Below are positions 16,182-49,691 of a stretch of DNA of 49,691 nucleotides, one piece after another. Both the position numbers and the translations under genes were made by a program. Numbering within the stretch: position 1 is the first letter of the stretch; each line of letters opens with the position of its first letter. The DNA is taken from positions 1-49,691 of the forward strand of contig NZ_JAFLWI010000013.1 of assembly GCF_017315945.1 (NCBI RefSeq), written 5' to 3'. Below the pieces are notes generated by a model that worked only from the letters and a program-made list of their open reading frames with translations, searched no databases and was not told the DNA's origin. Source of the DNA: Candidatus Enterococcus courvalinii (GTDB lineage Bacteria > Bacillota > Bacilli > Lactobacillales > Enterococcaceae).

Positions 16182-16342
16182 AAGTTTGTTCCTTTCAAAA
16201 TCAATTCTATTCTAGCAAAATAAATAATAGATTTATCAAATTGTTTAGGTTTACTTGCTATCTGATGCAGTAAAATAGCTTCTTTTGGTAATCTATGCCA
16301 GAACAATCTTCATTAGGTGTGCGTTATTTGTGGGAGAACTAT
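16182..16342. other. spacer between nuclease-like gene and repeat array
   Basis: AT-rich, no gene on either strand. GTGCGTTATTTGTGGGAGAACTAT just before 16343 loosely resembles the end of a repeat unit (as at 22919-22950), suggesting a decayed copy. Confidence 0.4.
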
Positions 16343-16596
16343 TTGAGCCACAACCTTATCCACGGTGTTCCCAAAGCAGCTTCTCGAAATAACACACAAC
16401 TGTTCAAAAATATGAAAAGCTATTTTTTACCAGTGGTTCTTTATTTTTTTGAAGCTAAACGCTTTGAGCCACGACCTTATTCACGGTGTTCCCAAAGCAA
16501 CTCCTTGATATAGCTTACATTCATCTCAAAATATGAGAACCTATTTTGAATGCTTGCTCGCTATCTAGTCGGAGCTAAACGCTTTGAGCCACAACC
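16343..16596. repeat. intergenic tandem repeat array A (two ~120-bp units plus edge)
   Basis: Units start TTGAGCCAC at 16343 and 16464; a truncated third starts at 16584 and stops at CCACAACC (16589-16596). Shared blocks are CACGGTGTTCCCAAAGCA, AAAATATGAxAAxCTATTTT and GAAGCTAAACGCT/GGAGCTAAACGCT. Each unit contains a potential hairpin (CAAAATA...TATTTTG), and a second pair GCTTTG/CAAAGC spans unit junctions (16461-16466 with 16493-16498). The array is non-coding; a degenerate copy may extend left to ~16270. The right edge is one base from the stop of the minus-strand gene at 16598. See arrays at 22731 and 49651. Confidence 0.85.
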
Positions 16597-16597
16597 T

Positions 16598-16783
16598 TTA
16601 TTTAAACAAACTTTTGATTTTATCAGTGATTCCATCAACATCGATATCTTTCAAAAGGTGTTTTGCTTGCTCAACATAGCTACCAAGTTCATCTTTATGG
16701 TCTTCGACAAATTGTTTTGCTTCGTCTAAATTTCCTTCATTAACCATTTCTTTTACTTTTGTAATTAATTCGTCTTTATTCAT
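16598..16783 (-). CDS. small acidic helical protein, unknown
   Basis: 61 residues, soluble, almost wholly helical (MNKDELITKVKEMVNEG, DEAKQFVEDHKDEL, EQAKHLLKDIDVDGITDKIKSLF). The style resembles small stress-induced proteins of lactobacilli/enterococci, but I know no named family. Good ribosome site AAGGATGGG. Its stop codon is immediately followed, with one base between, by the boundary of the intergenic repeat array, so the repeat would be its 3' untranslated region. Confidence 0.7.
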   Translation of the reverse strand: MNKDELITKVKEMVNEGNLDEAKQFVEDHKDELGSYVEQAKHLLKDIDVDGITDKIKSLFK

Positions 16784-17021
16784 TTTGACCCATCCTTTAT
16801 AGTTATTAAAAAGTAACGAATAACAATATAAAATACTTTTAATATCATGTTCAGATTACTTTTACACTATTAGTTTATCAGATAATGAGGTTTTTTTGCA
16901 TAATAGTTGTTATGAAATTTGACTGCATTGCTAAAGTATGAGGGAAAACTCATTCCTAGGTCGGAGGTTTCTATTTTCTGTTTCTAGTTATAATAAATGC
17001 AATAGCATAGGAGGTAGGAAA

Positions 17022-17393
17022 ATGAAAGTAGTTAAATTTTTTGTAGGAATTATTCTGATTGGCGGGTTAAGTTTGTTTGGATTAAAAATGTATACGGCAA
17101 ACCAACATGGTGAATTTGCTGGTATAGCGGATCAACTGAATCCTTTGGTAACAGAAGGAGAAGTTTATGTAAAAACGAAAAAACCAGACTCTGTTAATAG
17201 TTACGGAACAGCAACGTATGTTCAGGAAGCAGCAGATGAAAACGGGAAAAAACGAATAGTTGAATTCAATGGAATTGGTGTATTAAAAGAAGAGCGTTAT
17301 TTGAAGTTGAAAAATAAAGGAGCACATGTCGAAACATATGAAGAAGTCGACAAAAACGAAGTACCTGAAAAAGCATTAGCACTTATTGGATAA
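17022..17393 (+). CDS. YxeA family exported protein
   Basis: 123 residues from ATG 17022, preceded by AGGAGG. N-terminal hydrophobic segment (4-23) acting as signal or anchor, then a small external domain with alternating strands (EGEVYVKTKK, SYGTATYVQEA, KKRIVEFNGIGVL, RYLKLKNKGAHVETYEEV, EVPEKAL). This matches the YxeA (DUF1093) family of small OB-fold-like exported proteins, whose function is unknown. A TATAAT at 16989-16994 is a candidate -10. Single gene with its own terminator. Confidence 0.82.
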   Translation: MKVVKFFVGIILIGGLSLFGLKMYTANQHGEFAGIADQLNPLVTEGEVYVKTKKPDSVNSYGTATYVQEAADENGKKRIVEFNGIGVLKEERYLKLKNKGAHVETYEEVDKNEVPEKALALIG

Positions 17394-17410
17394 TAGATAT
17401 AAAAACAGAT

Positions 17411-17450
17411 AAAAAAAGGAGTTGCGATGTTTATCGCAACTCCTTTTTTT
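17411..17450 (+). terminator. terminator after yxeA-type gene
   Basis: AAAAAAAGGAGTTGCGAT / ATCGCAACTCCTTTTTTT (17411-17428, 17433-17450), a perfect 18-bp stem with T-run. Confidence 0.92.
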
Positions 17451-17477
17451 AAATGATCAGAAAACATGAACCCAGAA

Positions 17478-17550
17478 TTGGGATGGTAGGGTTCGAACCT
17501 GCAATTGCTTGATTCAGAGTCAAGTGCCTTACCAGTTTGGCTACATCCCA
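17478..17550 (-). tRNA. tRNA-Gln (anticodon CTG)
   Basis: 73-nt cloverleaf on the minus strand: acceptor TGGGATG/CATCCCA with U1-A72 as usual for tRNA-Gln, D-arm GCC...GGC, anticodon arm CTTGA-CTCTGAA-TCAAG giving anticodon CTG (reads CAG), and T-loop TTCGAAC. The T-stem GCAGG/CCTAC has one C-A mismatch. CCA is not encoded. It sits alone, outside an rRNA operon or tRNA cluster. Confidence 0.9.
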
Positions 17551-17613
17551 ATGACTCAACGCAAATTTATGTTAGCACTTATCAAGAAAAACGCAACTAA
17601 TTTAACTTATCCG

Positions 17614-18027
17614 CTACTTGTTTTTCTTGATTCGTTCGATTCGGCGTTCGATTTTTCTAACTAAACTAGATGGGAGGCCTGTTATTTCAGCCACAGAAAT
17701 AGTCGAAGAAAGAAGTTTTAATTCAAGTGATAGTTCATTTTTCAAATGGTAGATATTTGCTAAACGCTCAACATATTCAAAGTGCGTGTATTCAGTTTGT
17801 AAAATCAAAAATTTTAGGATATCAATTGCTTTTTCAAAATCTTGTTCGGCATAATAGGCCAAAGCTTGACGATATAATTTGATTTCCAATTGATTCAAAG
17901 ATGAAGGGCGGTGACGGTTTGTCCATTCATTGACGGAAATTTTTCCCTGAACATTCCCAGAATCATCACGTACAAAAATGATTGGAATTTCATTTGGATT
18001 CGGTTTTTTTTGATTGAATCTTTCCAT
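17614..18027 (-). CDS. conserved hypothetical protein with TPR-like helices
   Basis: 137 residues, soluble. The first ~35 residues are extended and polar (MERFNQKKPNPNEIPIIFVRDDSGNVQGK). The rest is helical with a TPR-like pattern (LYRQALAYYAEQDFEKAIDILKFLILQ; YVERLANIYHLKNELSLELKLL) ending in a basic helix (SSLVRKIERRIERIKKNK). No named family. Ribosome site GAGGAGG precedes the ATG. The upstream C39-like gene has the same orientation with 66 bp between, so they may be co-transcribed. Confidence 0.7.
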   Translation of the reverse strand: MERFNQKKPNPNEIPIIFVRDDSGNVQGKISVNEWTNRHRPSSLNQLEIKLYRQALAYYAEQDFEKAIDILKFLILQTEYTHFEYVERLANIYHLKNELSLELKLLSSTISVAEITGLPSSLVRKIERRIERIKKNK

Positions 18028-18093
18028 GATGACGCCTCCTCTTTCAAACTAGAATCTTCTTGTCTAAAGTATATGTCATTCTTTGAAAGAACG

Positions 18094-18855
18094 CTAGTTA
18101 CTTTTTTCCAAGGTTAACATTTGTCCACCCATTGCTTCAAAGATTTCAGTAAAATCTTCGATTGGAACTGCTCGATTTTTTTCACCATAGGGATCGTTCA
18201 CGTAAATCGTTTCCTCATCATAGCCTGTTACAACACAAGCGTGAATGAGGGGAGTAACAGAAACTTCTCCATTTTGGGTGATCCAAGTCATAAAATCATT
18301 GTCATCGGGGACCTCAAACTCAATGGTGACACTAGTCCAAACGGGTTTATCCTCATTCAATGCTTCTTTGATATCAGTAAGTGACGCTTCTTTTTTTGCT
18401 TGAGCGTGATAGCTGGTTTGGACTACTTCTTGTGCGAGTGCAGCAATTGGTGCGACATAGACACCCATTGCCCAGTCTCCACCAGAAATATCACCAACAA
18501 ATCCTTCATTTGGATCACCATGGGTGCCGTCTTCATTGAATACAGGTACATAGGTAAGCTCGTTTGCTAATTGATTTTTGTTCGTATCAAAGCCATAGTA
18601 ATTTAAGAGCATAGAAAGGGCAGTTACTTCACAGCCATTTTCTAAAGCTGGTTCGTCAAACTGATTAGCAAGTGGGACATCTAAAATGATTTCGTTTGCT
18701 TCATTTGAATTTTTTTTAGCTGGAGGTTTCTGATTCTCTTGTTTTTGCTGTGGTGTTTCGTTTGAGTTGGGAGTGGTTAACCAATAAATTGAGCCAGCAG
18801 CAAGTAAGCTGATACTAACAATTCCTGTTAATTTTTTTGCAACTTTCTTTTTCAT
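18094..18855 (-). CDS. exported C39-like cysteine peptidase (YvpB type)
   Basis: 253 residues from ATG 18855, placed five bases after GGAGG; an ATG 12 bases earlier contains that site. Signal/anchor segment 8-26, a Gln/Lys/Asn-rich spacer, then a papain-like C39_2 domain (about 55-250). The active-site set is visible: ENGCEVTAL (Cys), TPLIHACVVTGYD (His) and VNDPYGEKN (Asp). Family members are membrane-attached or secreted cysteine peptidases of unknown substrate; they lack the ABC exporter domain of bacteriocin processors. A promoter on this strand reads TTTACA-16-TATAAT (18928 to 18901). Confidence 0.85.
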   Translation of the reverse strand: MKKKVAKKLTGIVSISLLAAGSIYWLTTPNSNETPQQKQENQKPPAKKNSNEANEIILDVPLANQFDEPALENGCEVTALSMLLNYYGFDTNKNQLANELTYVPVFNEDGTHGDPNEGFVGDISGGDWAMGVYVAPIAALAQEVVQTSYHAQAKKEASLTDIKEALNEDKPVWTSVTIEFEVPDDNDFMTWITQNGEVSVTPLIHACVVTGYDEETIYVNDPYGEKNRAVPIEDFTEIFEAMGGQMLTLEKSN

Positions 18856-19242
18856 AAGGACCTCCAATTATTCCACAGGGGAATATCTTACATTCTTGCT
18901 ATTATAATGTTTTTTTTGAGAATGTAAAATACTTTTTCACTAATTATTGGTGAGAAAGTTTACATAAAAAAATTAACAGCTAGTAATAATTTTTTCAACT
19001 ATTTCAACTTAACTATTGAGAGAAAGAAAAAATGAATAATTCCGTTCTTTTTTATGAATTTTCAACGAAACTTTCGTGTTTAGAAGGGGTTTTATTTGTG
19101 AAAACGAAACCAGTAGGCTATAATGCCAATATGGTTTGTTCAAAAAGTTGTTAGCAAGCGTTAACCGGCAATGACAATGAACATTCGACCTGAATAAAGT
19201 ACTTCAGGAAAGAAAATGGGGCAGCAGTGTAGGAGGATTTTG
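18856..19242. promoter_or_regulatory. divergent promoter region with untranslated leader
   Basis: 387 bp without a gene. Minus strand: TTTACA-16-TATAAT (18928-18901) for the C39 gene. Plus strand: TTGTGA (19096-19101), 17 bp, TATAAT (19119-19124) for the small gene at 19243. This gives a ~110-nt leader containing a palindromic GTTAGCAAGCGTTAAC (cre-like, two mismatches) and a CCTGAA/TTCAGG hairpin. Confidence 0.6.
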
Positions 19243-19440
19243 ATGACGGAAGAAATGATAAATTTAGGAGAAAAGTATTCTTGTAAGCCAATTGGATTCA
19301 CACAACCAGTTGTTGGAGAAGTTGTATCAAAAATGACGAATTGTGCCGTAGTCAAAGTTGCTCAGTGTGCTGACGAAGACCAAGAGTTATTGGAAGAGAA
19401 GTCCAGCATGGTTGTTGCAAAATATGATACATTTGAATAA
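19243..19440 (+). CDS. DUF2187-like small protein
   Basis: 65 residues from ATG 19243, seven bases after AGGAGG. Beta-rich: a KPIGFTQPVVGEVVSKMTNCAVVKV strand pair, acidic turn ADEDQELLEEKSSMVVAKYDTFE. Size and the pattern G-x-V-x-x-V...A-V-V...E-E-x-x-x-V-V-x-x-x-Y match DUF2187 (YkvS-like, KOW/SH3-type barrels), function unknown. It carries two unusual Cys. Monocistronic with its own promoter and terminator. Confidence 0.6.
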   Translation: MTEEMINLGEKYSCKPIGFTQPVVGEVVSKMTNCAVVKVAQCADEDQELLEEKSSMVVAKYDTFE

Positions 19441-19445
19441 AAAAT

Positions 19446-19495
19446 AAAAAGGACAAGTAGCTCAAACGCGAAAAGTGTTGCTGCGTGTCCTTTTT
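19446..19495 (+). terminator. terminator
   Basis: AAAAAGGACA (19446-19455) pairs with TGTCCTTTTT (19486-19495); an inner AGTAGC / GCTGC-type pairing extends the stem. Confidence 0.75.
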
Positions 19496-19573
19496 GCTGT
19501 TTTTTCAAAAGTTCTATATACTTAGTAGAAAGAGAAAAGTTTTCTTGAGATGAGAGAAGAGAGGTGATGTACA

Positions 19574-20056
19574 ATGATAACGACTTTTACTTTGTTATTG
19601 TTTGCATTTGTTTTTGTCATGTTCTTATTTTTATGGTTTGTCCGTAGAGAAATTGTTTATAAAGCAGTCCGAAATCGTTGGGTTTATCTGGTAGTCCCAT
19701 TTCTAGTGGTCCTAGTGATCTGGTTTACTGTCATTAGTCAGCCAACACTAGACGACTTAGCGAAGGCTGTTTTATCAGCAATGATATTCATCAGTTTTTT
19801 ATTGGATAGCCGTGGAATCACAGAAGATGGCTTGGTTTTAAATAGCTTTGATAAACGAGGTGTTCCTTTTTCTGAGATCAATCGAATCGTTTTATATCAA
19901 CCACAAGGTTCAAATGAAGTAAAAATGAACTTTTTCCGTAAGGGTTGGCGTGGGCCAATGCTAAAATTTTCTACTTCTTTAGAGGAATTGGTGCCATTTT
20001 TAGCGCAGCGGTTAAATGATGATGCACAAATTGATATTATGATTGATGAAGAGTAA
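19574..20056 (+). CDS. membrane protein, unknown (DUF5673-like layout)
   Basis: 160 residues. Membrane segments at about 4-24 and 37-55 and a weaker one at 62-78, then a cytoplasmic domain with RGITEDGLVLNSFDKRGVPFSEINRIVLYQ, a pattern like the PH-like membrane proteins in which a short helical pair precedes a beta domain. The family name is uncertain. Ribosome site AGAGAGGTGATG. Single gene, converging on the nitroreductase. Confidence 0.68.
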   Translation: MITTFTLLLFAFVFVMFLFLWFVRREIVYKAVRNRWVYLVVPFLVVLVIWFTVISQPTLDDLAKAVLSAMIFISFLLDSRGITEDGLVLNSFDKRGVPFSEINRIVLYQPQGSNEVKMNFFRKGWRGPMLKFSTSLEELVPFLAQRLNDDAQIDIMIDEE

Positions 20057-20120
20057 AGAATGTGGTGCAAAGCGTTAAGCACCGATTTTGTTTTCTATAA
20101 AAATGATTGTTTTAAACTAA

Positions 20121-20160
20121 AAAAGGACACGCTTAGGTTTATCCTAAACGTGTCCTTTTT
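20121..20160. terminator. bidirectional terminator
   Basis: AAAAGGACACGCTTAGG / CCTAAACGTGTCCTTTT (20121-20137, 20143-20159), between converging genes. Confidence 0.9.
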
Positions 20161-20174
20161 TTCTTGTACGTAGC

Positions 20175-20771
20175 TTAGCTAAATACGCGGAAACGATCTT
20201 CGTCGTTCATGTATTCTTTTTCGCCAGCAGGTGATTCAACAGAACCGAAGACTAATTGAGAACGTAGTTTCCAGTTTGCAGGAATGTTCCATTCTTTTGC
20301 AACAGCTTCGTCAATTACTGGATTGTAATGTTGTAAGTTTGCGCCAAGTCCTTGATCAACTAATGAAACCCAAGTATTTGCTGTTGCAATACCATTTGAT
20401 TGTTCTGACCAATCTGGGAAGTTATCCGCATAAAGTTCAAATTGTTCTTGCAATCCTTTAACGATGTCAGTGTCTTTAAAGAATAAAACAGTTCCGTAAC
20501 CATTTTTGAAACCAGCTAATTTTTGTTGTGTGTTAGGAAAAGCTTCAGCAGGTGTTAATGGGCGAAGTGCTTCTTCTGTGATTTCCCATAATTTTTCGTG
20601 AGCATCACCGAAAAGAATAACAGCGCGTGTTGATTGTGCATTGAAAGCAGTTGGACTTTCTTTGATTGCTTCTTTGATAAGTGCTTCTAATTCTGTGTTT
20701 GATAATGAAACGTTGCGTCCCAAATGATAGATAGAACGGCGGTTTTTTAAAGTATTTGTAAATGTAGTCAT
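20175..20771 (-). CDS. nitroreductase family protein (HBN/CinD-like)
   Basis: 198 residues. Starts TLKNRRSIYHLGRNV, the FMN phosphate-binding Arg-Arg-Ser of the family, followed by ESPTAFNAQSTRAVIL and ends GxVxSPAGEKEY. Length and motifs fit the short HBN1-like group that includes Lactococcus CinD and Bacillus HypO/YodC: FMN-dependent NAD(P)H oxidoreductases acting on quinones, nitro compounds and peroxide stress. The promoter carries two copies of a palindrome also found before the YodB-like regulator at 30499, suggesting control by quinone/electrophile stress (inference). Confidence 0.88.
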   Translation of the reverse strand: MTTFTNTLKNRRSIYHLGRNVSLSNTELEALIKEAIKESPTAFNAQSTRAVILFGDAHEKLWEITEEALRPLTPAEAFPNTQQKLAGFKNGYGTVLFFKDTDIVKGLQEQFELYADNFPDWSEQSNGIATANTWVSLVDQGLGANLQHYNPVIDEAVAKEWNIPANWKLRSQLVFGSVESPAGEKEYMNDEDRFRVFS

Positions 20772-20803
20772 AATATAATCTCCCTTTGAATGTTGTTTTT
20801 TAA

Positions 20804-20861
20804 CTTACTTTTTGTAATTGAATACAAAATGAAGTATATCACCTTACAAAAAGTAAGTAAA
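20804..20861 (-). promoter_or_regulatory. nitroreductase promoter with two CTTAC-N5-GTAAG operators
   Basis: Minus-strand promoter TTTACT (20861-20856), 17-bp spacer, TATACT (20838-20833). Operator B, CTTAC-AAAAA-GTAAG (20843-20857), fills the spacer. Operator A, CTTAC-TTTTT-GTAAT (20804-20818), lies downstream of the RNA start. A repressor here would block both RNA polymerase binding and escape. Confidence 0.7.
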
Positions 20862-21148
20862 TAGAAATGCTCAAAAAATTTTAACTTTTTTTTGAAGAAA
20901 AATTTAATGAGAAAGCAAAAAGAGTGATAGCGGTTACTTGGTTGCTTTAGCGACTTTTTCCACTTTGTCTATGGAGTGGTACTATATAATTATTAAATGT
21001 GTGTTTTTTTATTCTTATTATTTTGTCATTGAATTTTACTTATTTTTATAGAAAAGAAGTATATATTTCTTAAATAAGTTTTTCAGTTAAATTTTTCGGT
21101 GAATATGTTTATTATTTTCTGAAAATTTAAAGAATTGGGGTATGGATT
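20862..21148 (+). promoter_or_regulatory. dtpT upstream region with CodY-type box
   Basis: No gene. A TATAAT lies at 20985-20990 (weak -35). TATTTTCTGAAAATT at 21113-21127 matches the CodY consensus AATTTTCWGAAAATT at 14 of 15 positions and sits just before the ribosome site (GGGG) of dtpT. CodY represses peptide uptake genes when branched-chain amino acids are plentiful, which fits the gene. Confidence 0.6.
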
Positions 21149-22615
21149 ATGGAAAATCAACAAGATAAAGGCTTCTTTGGCCAGCCGAAGGGGTTATCAA
21201 CATTGTTCTTCACAGAGATGTGGGAACGATTCAGTTATTATGGGATGCGCGCATTACTTCTTTATTATATGTATGACGCAGTTTCAAATGGTGGTCTTGG
21301 ATTACCACGTACTACAGCCTTAGCAATCATGTCGATTTATGGTTCACTTGTATTTATGTCAAGTATTGTTGGTGGTTGGATTTCTGACCGTTTACTTGGA
21401 GCAAAGCGAACAGTATTTTTTGGTGGAGTATTCATCATGTTTGGTCACATTGTTTTAGCAACCCCATTTGGAGTAGGAGCTTTATTTATTTCAATGGCAT
21501 TGATCATTATGGGGACAGCTTTACTGAAACCAAATGTATCTGGAATGGTGGGCCATCTTTATTCAAAAACGGATTTACGTCGTGACGCAGGTTTCTCAAT
21601 CTTTTATATGGGTGTGAACTTGGGCGCGTTATTAGCACCACTGATCGTTGGGACTTTGGGTCAAGAATATAACTATCATTTAGGGTTCTCACTAGCAGCG
21701 TTTGGGATGTTCTTTGGTTTATTGCAATATATCATTCAAGGACGTAAAACATTAGACGGTGTTGGAACAAAAGCACCAAACCCATTAACACCAGAAGAAC
21801 GTAAAGGTTTTATTCGTAACTTTGTTCTTGCAATTGTCGTAATCATTGCTATTTTTGGTGGTGCACAATTAACTGGTCATCTTTCTATTGATTTCTTTGT
21901 TAATTCGATTAGCGTACTTGGAATTGTGTTGCCTGTTTTCTATTTTGTAAAAATGTTAACGTCAAAAGATGTTTCTGCAGAAGAAAAACCACGCGTGTTA
22001 GCATATATTCCCTTGTTTTTAGCAGCAATTATTTTCTGGTCATTACAAGAGCAAGGCTCATCTATTCTTGCATTGTTTGCCAGTGAACGAACACAATCAA
22101 CTTTATTTGGTGTAACGATCCAAGCAAGTTGGTTCCAATCATTAAATCCGATTTTCATTTTTGTTTTGACACCTGTCTTCGTTACTTTATGGACAAAACT
22201 AGGACAAAAACAACCATCTACTGTTGTGAAATTTGCGCTTGGTTTATTATTTGCTGGACTTTCTTACTTATTATTGATGTTACCAGGTTTATTATATGGA
22301 ACAGCTGGAAAAGTAAGCCCAATGTGGTTGGTGGGTAGCTTCTTCATCATCGTAATTGCGGAATTGTGTTTATCACCAGTTGGTCTTTCAGTAACAACTA
22401 AACTAGCACCGCGCGCGTTTGAATCACAAACCATTGCTATTTGGTTCTTAGCAGATGCCTCATCACAAGCAATTAACGCACAAATCGCTCGTTTTTATAC
22501 ACCGGCAACTGAATCAGCATATTTTGGAATCATTGGGGTTGTTGCAATAGTCGGCGGGATTTTATTGTTCACAATCAAAGAACCAATTAAGAAACTGATG
22601 GGTTCAATTCATTAA
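21149..22615 (+). CDS. dtpT: POT family di-/tripeptide:proton symporter
   Basis: 488 residues, ~14 membrane segments. Family marks: FFTEMWERFSYYGMRALLLYY at the start (ExxER-type motif of helix 1), GGWISDRLLGAKR in the first cytoplasmic loop, LKPNVSGMVGHLY and FSIFYMGVNLGALLAPLIVG (PTR2 signature), and SxxLQEQGSSI later. It imports di- and tripeptides with protons and matches lactococcal DtpT in size. Single gene with its own terminator and a CodY-like box upstream. Confidence 0.95.
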   Translation: MENQQDKGFFGQPKGLSTLFFTEMWERFSYYGMRALLLYYMYDAVSNGGLGLPRTTALAIMSIYGSLVFMSSIVGGWISDRLLGAKRTVFFGGVFIMFGHIVLATPFGVGALFISMALIIMGTALLKPNVSGMVGHLYSKTDLRRDAGFSIFYMGVNLGALLAPLIVGTLGQEYNYHLGFSLAAFGMFFGLLQYIIQGRKTLDGVGTKAPNPLTPEERKGFIRNFVLAIVVIIAIFGGAQLTGHLSIDFFVNSISVLGIVLPVFYFVKMLTSKDVSAEEKPRVLAYIPLFLAAIIFWSLQEQGSSILALFASERTQSTLFGVTIQASWFQSLNPIFIFVLTPVFVTLWTKLGQKQPSTVVKFALGLLFAGLSYLLLMLPGLLYGTAGKVSPMWLVGSFFIIVIAELCLSPVGLSVTTKLAPRAFESQTIAIWFLADASSQAINAQIARFYTPATESAYFGIIGVVAIVGGILLFTIKEPIKKLMGSIH

Positions 22616-22626
22616 AAATTCTTAGT

Positions 22627-22660
22627 GCCTTGGGCAATTGATGCCCTAGGCTTTTTTTTG
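22627..22660 (+). terminator. terminator after dtpT
   Basis: GCCTTGGGCA (22627-22636) pairs with TGCCCTAGGC (22642-22651), followed by eight T. Confidence 0.9.
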
Positions 22661-23129
22661 TGGAAAAATAGTTTAGATATAAGATCAATTCAAAAAAATT
22701 TGTAGCTGACTATTTTCTTGTCGCAAAGTTATTTGAGATGTTCTTAAAGCAACTTTTTCATATAGTTACATTTACTTCAAAATAGAAGAAATTATTTTGT
22801 GCAATTGCGTATGATATTGTTGAAGGGGGATGATTTGTGATAGTTTTTTCCTCCGAGTGCCCCAAGGAACTCCTCGTAATAACGCTCAACTAATCAAAAT
22901 TATGAAAAGCTATTTTAAGTGCTTGCGCGCTCTCTGGTGGGAGTTAGGTGTTTTGCGCCACAACCTTATCCACGGTGTTCTCAAAGCAACTTCTCGAAAT
23001 AATTCGTAACTGACCAAAAATATGGAAAGCTATTTTTGTCAGTTGCTCATTATTTTGTCGAAGCTGACCGCTTTGCACCACAACCTTTTTTTAAAAGTTA
23101 TTTCTTTTCACCAAAAACCTTGATAAGTA
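22661..23129. other. gene-free spacer dominated by the repeat array
   Basis: No coding frame with a ribosome site. 22661-22730 is plain AT-rich sequence, 22731-23085 is repeat array B, and 23086-23129 leads into the rexB promoter. On the minus strand, a short open stretch ending in TAA lies just outside the array edge, possibly the remnant of a gene end. Confidence 0.6.
22731..23085. repeat. intergenic tandem repeat array B (about three units)
   Basis: Same family and orientation as the array at 16343. A degenerate unit (~22731-22840; TCTTAAAGCAAC, CTTCAAAATAGAAGAA), a second (~22855-22954; CAAAATTATGAAAAGCTATTTT, AGTGCTTGCGCGCTCTCTGG), and a well-preserved third (22955-23070; CCACAACCTTATCCACGGTG, CAAAAATATGGAAAGCTATTTTTG) are followed by an edge stopping at CCACAACC (23078-23085). 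Hairpin arms are kept with altered bases: CAAAAATA/TATTTTTG here against TCAAAATA/TATTTTGA at 16526-16549. Located upstream of rexB. Confidence 0.85.
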
Positions 23130-30871: not shown

Positions 30872-31127
30872 TGTAAATTGTAAATAAACAAAGAACCATG
30901 ACGAAAAAGAGTAGTTTGGCTAAACCAGATCAGGGAGATTTGTCATAGACTGAGAGCAAATCCTGTGTTTGAAAAATGAAGTTCACTTTCTGAGTTCGCC
31001 TAGTTTTTTCTACTAGGCCGGCAATTGTCGTTAATCAAGTAAGTGTGTGAGTAGCTATTCGCTTTACTCACAAATTAGGATGGTATCGCGAAGACCTCGT
31101 TCCTTGATAGGAATGAGGTCTTTTTTT
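30872..31127 (+). promoter_or_regulatory. T-box riboswitch (Phe) controlling pheST
   Basis: A ~255-nt leader with the T-box sequence AATTAGGATGGTATCGCG (31073-31090), a slight variant of the usual AGGGTGGTACCGCG. The terminator stem GACCTCGTTCC / GGAATGAGGTC with seven T (31093-31127) follows at once. Upstream are the AGTA-type GAGAGCAAATCC region, TTC triplets at 30982-30984 (likely Phe specifier) and 30995-30997, and a GCCTAGT/ACTAGGC hairpin (30998-31017). Uncharged tRNA-Phe should stabilise the antiterminator and allow pheS-pheT expression. Confidence 0.9.
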
Positions 31128-48555: not shown

Positions 48556-49650
48556 ATGGGAAAACTTGGAGTTTCGATTTACCCAGAACGCTCAACATTT
48601 GAAAAGGATAAAGCATATTTAGATCTAGCACATAAATATGGATTTAAACGCGTATTTACAAGCTTGTTGCAAGTGAACGATGACAAAGAGCAAGTATTAG
48701 CCGGATTTACAAAAGTAGTCGACTATGCGAATAGCTTAGGAATGGAAGTAATGGTAGATATTAATCCTGCCTTATTTGAACAACTTGAGATTTCTTATGA
48801 TGACTTATCATTTTTTGATGAAATGGGCGCTTATGGCGTTCGTTTAGATATTGGTTTTACGGGTGCAGAAGAAGCAAAGATGACGCGTAACCCATATGGT
48901 ATCAAAATTGAAATCAATATGAGCTCTGGAACAAACTACGTGGATAACATCATGAGTTATTCACCAAACACAAATAATTTATTGGGGTCACATAACTTTT
49001 ATCCACATCGCTATTCTGGTCTAAGTTACGATCACTTTGTTTATTGCTCAGAAAAATTCAGAAAATATAATTTGAATACAATGGCTTTTGTGAATTCACA
49101 AGTTGCAACATTTGGTCCATGGCCAACACAGGATGGTTTGTGTTCATTAGAAGACCATCGTGACTTAGAGATTTCAACACAAGTAAAACATTTGATGTTA
49201 ACTGGTTTGATTGATGATATTTCTGTTGGGAACGCCTATGCAAGTGAAGAAGAGTTAAAAGCAATGGCGGAAGCCTTCAACGCAGATTACCCAACGCTAA
49301 AAGTCGATGTAGAAGAAGGAATTACAGAAGACGAACGTATTTGTTTGTTTGATAACTTACACAGTTACCGAGGAGATCGTTCAGAATATATTTTACGTTC
49401 GACAATGACACGTGTTTATTACAAAGATAAACCTTTCCCAGCTCATAATACTCGTGATATGACTCACGGGGACGTTTTGATTGATAATGTTGGCTACGGT
49501 CAATACAAAGGTGAGACACAAATTGCTCTGAAAGAAATGAAAAATGATGGACGAGTGAATGTGGTCGGCCGAATTTCAGAAGATGAATTATTCTTGCTCG
49601 ATTTCTTGAAACCATGGTCAAGCTTTAAATTGATTGAAAACGTGAAATAA
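48556..49650 (+). CDS. MupG family 6-phospho-N-acetylmuramidase-like TIM-barrel protein
   Basis: 364 residues, the DUF871 family: LGVSIYPERSTFEKDKAYLDLAHKYGF at the start, a TIM barrel (GMEVMVDINPALFEQL, GVRLDIGFTG, SHNFYPHRYSGL, FVNSQ) and a small C-terminal domain (AHNTRDMTHGDVLIDN, GYGQYKGETQIAL). MupG of S. aureus cleaves MurNAc-6-phosphate-GlcNAc after PTS uptake in wall recycling. No PTS gene is visible here; it may lie beyond the right edge. AGGAGG precedes the ATG. A repeat-family edge begins right after its TAA. Confidence 0.9.
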   Translation: MGKLGVSIYPERSTFEKDKAYLDLAHKYGFKRVFTSLLQVNDDKEQVLAGFTKVVDYANSLGMEVMVDINPALFEQLEISYDDLSFFDEMGAYGVRLDIGFTGAEEAKMTRNPYGIKIEINMSSGTNYVDNIMSYSPNTNNLLGSHNFYPHRYSGLSYDHFVYCSEKFRKYNLNTMAFVNSQVATFGPWPTQDGLCSLEDHRDLEISTQVKHLMLTGLIDDISVGNAYASEEELKAMAEAFNADYPTLKVDVEEGITEDERICLFDNLHSYRGDRSEYILRSTMTRVYYKDKPFPAHNTRDMTHGDVLIDNVGYGQYKGETQIALKEMKNDGRVNVVGRISEDELFLLDFLKPWSSFKLIENVK

Positions 49651-49691
49651 GGTTGTGGTGCAAAACGATTAGCTCCGACGAGATAGCGAGC
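49651..49691. repeat. edge of intergenic repeat array C, inverted, cut by window end
   Basis: The complement reads GCTCGCTATCTCGTCGGAGC then TAATCGTTTTGCACCACAACC, the same edge sequence as at 16556-16596 and 23041-23085. On the plus strand it starts with GGTTGTGG directly after the TAA of the mupG-type gene, with no base between. The array probably continues past the window. Confidence 0.8.

Follow-up and report, generated by a model that had tools for sequence, protein, structure and literature searches.

Tandem arrays of a hairpin-forming repeat unit occur at three sites in a 49,691-nt stretch of Candidatus Enterococcus courvalinii (contig NZ_JAFLWI010000013.1; the whole stretch is hereafter called the window). 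The units are probably parts of an EFAR/Efa-1-type mobile element, non-autonomous and spread through Lactobacillales, that was moved into terminators by an IS1182-family transposase. Three observations are new here: a terminator hairpin closes complete copies, most of the outer ends tested resemble the terminal repeats of IS1182-family insertion sequences (ISs), and another hairpin stands at three element-less sister sites, as reported for the stem-loop-replacing IS1272 (PMC5678879). Searches of openly licensed papers, using names and words of sequence, turned up no account of the wider family and none of an IS1182 link. The proposal connects widespread and poorly explained intergenic hairpin repeats with a candidate mobiliser and with a testable mechanism, structure-guided transposition into terminators.

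Repeat units and their hairpin structure

Units were located with R1, a model built from aligned repeat units and used to search the window and its genome (G000; 2.6 Mb, 29 contigs). A unit extends from ACGGTGTTC to CACAACC (113-115 nt) and is followed by a linker of ~6 nt. The window contains three intact units (114-115 nt), one decayed unit, one remnant and one unit truncated at the contig end, arranged with their neighbours as follows.

16324..16361, + strand: junction, with the decayed end of another unit; the register of the 103-nt direct repeat begins at 16324
16362..16476, + strand as oriented in the model (minus strand in the sense of the gene): intact hairpin unit 1; R1 88.1 bits, E 3e-17; DNA fold z -3.07
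16477..16482, + strand: linker between units 1 and 2, the gap separating the R1 matches
16483..16596, + strand: intact hairpin unit 2; R1 80.3 bits; its CACAACC end lies 1 nt from the stop codon of a small minus-strand open reading frame (ORF)
16598..16783, - strand: 61-aa ORF, its 3' end adjoining the first array
about 22739..22812, + strand: remnant of a third unit at the second site; nhmmer 17 bits
22852..22965, + strand: decayed unit, second site; R1 23.0 bits, E 0.007
22972..23085, + strand: intact hairpin unit, second site; R1 96.4 bits; DNA fold z -3.72
48556..49650, + strand: MupG-like gene with 6-phospho-N-acetylmuramidase domains (PF19200, PF05913), its stop codon adjoining the third array
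49651..49691, - strand: array start truncated by the contig end, seen in the sequence directly after the stop codon of ORF 48556-49650

The initial annotation, made from the letters of the window, had proposed one repeat at three sites with a period of ~120 bp. The R1 matches at the first two sites and the array start cut off at 49691 confirm this, as do the direct repeats of the first site (103 nt in two copies, 37 nt in three), which are spaced by 121 and 120. In place of the unit starts then given (16343, 16464 and 16584), the R1 matches put the units at 16362-16476 and 16483-16596. The count of about three units at 22731-23085 holds for traces of units, but only one is intact, the others being the decayed unit and the 17-bit remnant. 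The repeats are mostly intergenic and have no transposase or credible coding frame, as had been stated: besides the neighbouring gene, the only ORF of at least 40 aa in the first array region is a mechanical one of 59 aa that overlaps this gene on the opposite strand. For the 61-aa ORF itself, no Pfam family scored above cut-off. At the third site, the orthologues in genomes G003 and G009 have fuller arrays.

The consensus unit is one long hairpin with six helices and an eight-base tip, and this structure is backed by covariation. From a set of 49 units <83% alike, 40 were aligned, nine (mostly low-scoring or N-containing) having been omitted before the count. Bases on both sides changed in 27 of the 34 pairs, with a covariation score of 0.524, compared with 0.163 for shuffles and at most 0.107 for slid partners. 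Among 470 close unit pairs, double changes are compensatory in 288 cases and disruptive in 68, and single changes creating or destroying a base pair number 1131. The best-conserved stretches are the ACGGTGTTC end, the CACAACC end and the tip. Single window units folded as DNA are only moderately better than shuffles (z -3.1 to -3.7). The covariance model can be used to find such elements across Lactobacillales.

Comparison with Rfam, a check proposed in the initial annotation, gave only a T-box and tRNA in the window at gathering score and no family for the repeat, and a search of 16250-16700 with E up to 10 returned nothing credible (best E 0.83, the chance level). The T-box leader (RF00230, 93.4 bits) is located at 30889-31107, upstream of the phenylalanyl-tRNA synthetase alpha gene.

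Known relatives, element ends and apparently replaced hairpins

In 400 kb of genome G016, repeats of 169 bp (L170:16129-16297) and 178 bp (L178:12195-12372) open with a terminator-like hairpin, after which comes a unit relative, and R1 matches five places (best E 2.3e-14). G016 is taken as E. faecalis from a 99% protein match to PDB chain 2p0o, which presumably originates from that species. A BLAST search of G016 with the window dimer gave no match, the relation being detected by profile and model only. EFAR is an E. faecalis intergenic repeat of ~170 bp with two adjacent hairpins and many copies, whose insertion reportedly targets stem-loops and mostly deletes them. Efa-1 of E. faecalis is described as a 163-bp pair of adjacent stem-loops in 65 copies (PMC2267715). 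Size (~163-170 bp), two adjacent hairpins, intergenic position and high copy number are thus shared, a likeness of descriptions and not of published letters. The two-hairpin form is shown by the G016 copies and not by the arrays of the window, which lack a terminal hairpin; the arrays of the window's genome as a whole (1-4 units) mostly lack one. A copy on an L. plantarum plasmid (162 nt) has a strong terminal hairpin (fold z -9.4). The R1 matches in G016, together with the fit to Efa-1 and EFAR, indicate that the kind is already known, and the repeat of the window fits an EFAR/Efa-1-type element in tandem-array form, again as judged from descriptions. The earlier impression that the repeat matches nothing described is in this way largely overturned, as far as the descriptions of Efa-1 and EFAR allow. 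As a side observation, a second short hairpin with a CCTACTTGG-like motif lies in or beside some units (L177:6996-7220, L169:10664-10800, L125, L128, L135) in E. faecalis and in a strain labelled E. faecalis 13-SD-W-01.

BOX of Streptococcus pneumoniae is likewise a modular intergenic hairpin repeat with a variable number of inner units, but differs, by its description, in its target duplications and its own terminal repeats (PMC3049150).

Placement was determined for 152 arrays, which include orthologous sites of close species and are therefore not independent; genes were called as ORFs of at least 80 aa, so small ones such as the 61-aa ORF at the first site were missed. Arrays often start a few nucleotides from a stop codon. 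Where genes were present on both sides (139 arrays), a gene ends towards the CACAACC end in 97, within 5 nt in 60 and within 20 nt in 79, and a gene start faces that end in 42. Stop codons lie within 20 nt of the ACGG end in 3 of 73 cases. In the window, the distance from stop codon to array is 1 nt for the first array and 0 nt for the third, and the second does not adjoin a stop codon.

Clean array ends read ACCGT, then TTATTC.., then a hairpin of the RGACA..TGTCY type. Among 48 distal ends without a recognised next unit, a script detected a hairpin with a T-run in 18 and the RGACA..TGTCY type in 13; the script missed rows where the same hairpin is visible by eye (L007, L042, L043, L232, L234) and did not count the hairpin it found in L040 as this type, and some of the 48 rows are decayed units. 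A first regular expression found no RGACA..TGTCY-type terminator in 447 kb, and a looser detector placed 11 of 165 background terminators in this class.

The terminal inverted repeats of the element are made up by the outer arm of the terminal hairpin and by the unit's GGTTGTGACA end. Terminal repeats of this kind occur in Enterococcaceae IS1182-family copies (recognised by NCBIfam NF033551 and Pfam DDE domains), namely in 8 of 24 with enough flank, and are perfect in copies on named plasmids of E. faecium (L386, 20 bp) and E. hirae (L389). In matches on S. haemolyticus and S. aureus plasmids (L387, L388; annotated or matched as IS1182 family, not confirmed as IS1272), the motif was found at the left end only. 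Of the 21 outer element ends tested, 20 agree with the terminal repeat of an IS1182 copy at 12-15 of 15 bases, the exception being the left end from the window's genome (L007L); 19 of the 20 are equalled by no more than 5 of 200 random sets. IS1272, of the IS1182 family, is reported to replace stem-loops without target duplication and to carry tandem left-end copies (PMC5678879). Terminal repeats of the type GAG..TGGGACA(A/T)AA and the replacement of a target stem-loop without duplication are common to these ISs and the element, but the ISs encode a transposase and the element does not. Measured as a miniature inverted-repeat transposable element (MITE), the element has IS-like terminal inverted repeats and no coding capacity, with no IS1182 transposase match at E 1e-30 in the same genome (G000) and no target site duplication seen by eye at the three sites described below.

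Orthologous sites were compared among G000, G009 and G003, with flanks ~90-99% alike. For 28 sites chosen in G000, all 28 orthologues were read in G003 and 26 in G009 (three of these cut by contig ends); for 20 more chosen in G003, 15 orthologues each were read in G000 and G009. A clean difference between filled and empty was seen at three sites.

Site 0: filled in G003; empty in G000 and G009, with an 18-bp hairpin instead
Site 8: filled in G003; empty in G000, with a 17-bp hairpin instead; G009 not read
L025: filled in G000; empty in G003, with a ~20-bp hairpin instead; G009 not read

At the filled sites, the other hairpin is missing and the element closes with a hairpin of its own, whose left arm contains GACA or GGCA; no target site duplication was seen by eye. 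The three empty-site hairpins fold far better than shuffles (z -8 to -11). At some sites, elements appear to have taken over the place of the gene's own terminator hairpin, and the stem-loop replacement reported for EFAR is seen at these three. Remaining unit-less sites are deletions, remnants or ambiguous (L009, L029, L054; sites 1, 5, 7, 10 and 14).

Units or remnants are present at most sites in each genome, in varying number (e.g. 4, 1 and 6 units of at least 40 bits at L003). The best orthologous unit is closer than any unit of the same genome at other sampled sites in only 6 of 13 comparisons with G009 and 4 of 24 with G003. Likeness of at least 95% is found in 17 of 56 adjacent unit pairs, compared with 2 of 2806 pairs from different sites. 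The sharing of sites that differ in unit number and type suggests that the sites are old and that their contents change by tandem duplication and by inter-copy exchange or re-insertion.

Candidate mechanism and alternatives

A complete copy, in the direction of its upstream gene, consists of GGTTGTG, the long hairpin (113-115 nt), ACCGT, a short linker and the terminator hairpin (~160-180 bp in all). In the proposed mechanism, an IS1272-type transposase of the IS1182 family would act in trans to move it into terminator hairpins, a role we infer from the likeness of ends. Insertion would replace the resident hairpin without target duplication, and the incoming terminator would keep terminator function; one orientation would then be favoured. 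Arrays would subsequently expand and turn over through tandem duplication and through exchange between copies. Such an insertion would swap the 3' end of the gene's transcript, and its effect on expression is directly testable.

Several results weigh against mobilisation into terminators by IS1182. A terminator within 160 nt was detected in only 34 of the 84 arrays lying within 20 nt of a stop codon, and is of the element type in 6 of those 34, against the background of 11 in 165; in most arrays, therefore, the terminal hairpin is no longer visible or was never present. The clean empty sites are few (three among 48 compared), and the direction of replacement is read from them indirectly. Element-type terminal repeats are restricted to the 8 of 24 IS1182 copies noted above. 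The ends test was hand-picked (21 element ends and 12 IS ends, with random segments drawn from loci that also contain those IS ends), the sole left end tested from the window's genome (L007L) is at chance (163 of 200 random sets as good), and L042L is weak (16 of 200). At E 1e-30, no IS1182 match was found in G000, G009 or G016, and G003 has decayed pieces only. IS1182 matches occur in 47 of 105 genomes and elements in 82 of 105, so the two are not closely associated. The IS with the closest repeat (L349) comes from genus g16, in whose listed genomes R1 matches nothing.

IS1182 is present in other element-bearing genomes, such as G014. The absence of an IS1182 match from the window's genome and the chance-level left end make its copies look like fossils, and these copies are probably immobile; the lack of matches in G000, G009 and G016 and the decay in G003 agree with a loss of mobility there, without proving it. 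That every copy includes a terminator was rejected as a general rule on the counts above (34 of 84 with a terminator, 6 of the element type). In a different IS1182 subgroup (L331, L336, L327, L340; terminal repeat CAGACTGTAGACAAA), a complete hairpin stands on both flanks, as if the target stem-loop had been duplicated.

A further suggestion, made tentatively and in our estimate rather improbable, is that the hairpin unit serves as cargo and also as target: an IS1182-type transposase that reads structure would treat the unit as a stem-loop, and incoming units would replace residents. If true, this would explain species-shared sites with swapped unit types, where structure is kept and sequence is not.

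Alternatively, the unit may be an RNA element of the 3' untranslated region, in which hairpins just past the stop codon shield the ends of mRNAs or adjust translation termination and selection holds structure and place; a similar role has reportedly been proposed for the repetitive extragenic palindromic (REP) sequences of E. coli. The strong compensatory change (27 of 34 pairs; 288 compensatory and 68 disruptive doubles) and the placement at stop codons would be expected from it, and nearly all of the first 28 sites retain a remnant or more in each of the three genomes where the stretch was readable. Stop-proximal units also outscore distal ones in 22 of 24, 8 of 10 and 19 of 23 arrays, but arrays were anchored on the stop-proximal unit, which may bias this count. 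The neighbouring genes, however, vary by site, several orthologous sites have lost their arrays or hold decayed ones, 42 of the 139 arrays lie towards a gene start, and structure could also be maintained by transposition or by template-directed correction of palindromes; we regard this explanation as unlikely. Array growth at the stop-codon end, which the same decay towards the distal end suggested, was unsupported by alignment of orthologous arrays, where unmatched units on the stop and distal sides number 50 and 62 (threshold 0.80), 46 and 60 (0.83), and 38 and 48 (0.86). Least probable is a MITE moved by a non-IS1182 transposase with IS1182-like ends arising by convergence on terminator-like GACA...TGTC hairpins, for which the 11 of 165 background terminators, the failure to find an autonomous unit-bearing copy and the lack of the mobiliser in the window's genome (E 1e-30) speak, but against which stand the agreement of both ends at 13-15 of 15 bases in several lineages, far beyond what random segments reach, and a stem-loop replacement the same as that reported for IS1272 (PMC5678879).

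Copy number and spread

The many genomic copies anticipated for the repeat were found in G000, with at least 52 matches by BLAST (best 40 of 97 candidates scored) and at least 96 by R1 (best 150 of 3203 candidates scored). A 447-kb sample of this genome contains 24 R1 matches, and the first 42 stretches taken contain 78 whole or partial units in 41 groups. Spread over the contigs is uneven among the best 150 candidates, with 2 R1 matches on C12 (417,755 bases), 4 on C8 (267,844), 15 on C27 (126,051) and 8 on C3 (79,109), a clustering noticed by inspection. Two contigs end within arrays (window 49651-49691 and G000:C26:1-240), so the repeats probably break assemblies, which deserves a warning to those who assemble such genomes.

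R1 matches occur in at least 82 of 105 Enterococcaceae genomes and 14 of 17 genera (E 0.001; at most 36 candidates scored per genome), and in 59 of 295 genomes sampled across the order (E 0.0001), 22 of the 59 being outside Enterococcaceae. The exact junction pattern was found, among named genomes, in Enterococcus species and in one Acidobacteria metagenome-assembled genome. Phage records gave no repeat match. By BLAST, the window dimer matches 58 plasmid records (45 Enterococcus, 12 Lactococcus, 1 Streptococcus) and a single unit matches 49, including 6 of Lactiplantibacillus; many of these matches represent one common locus beside a polysaccharide deacetylase gene. This gene, with the repeat at its 3' end (L249, L251, L252 and other plasmid loci), is common to Enterococcus, Lactococcus and Streptococcus plasmids, with 73 records at 95% or above.

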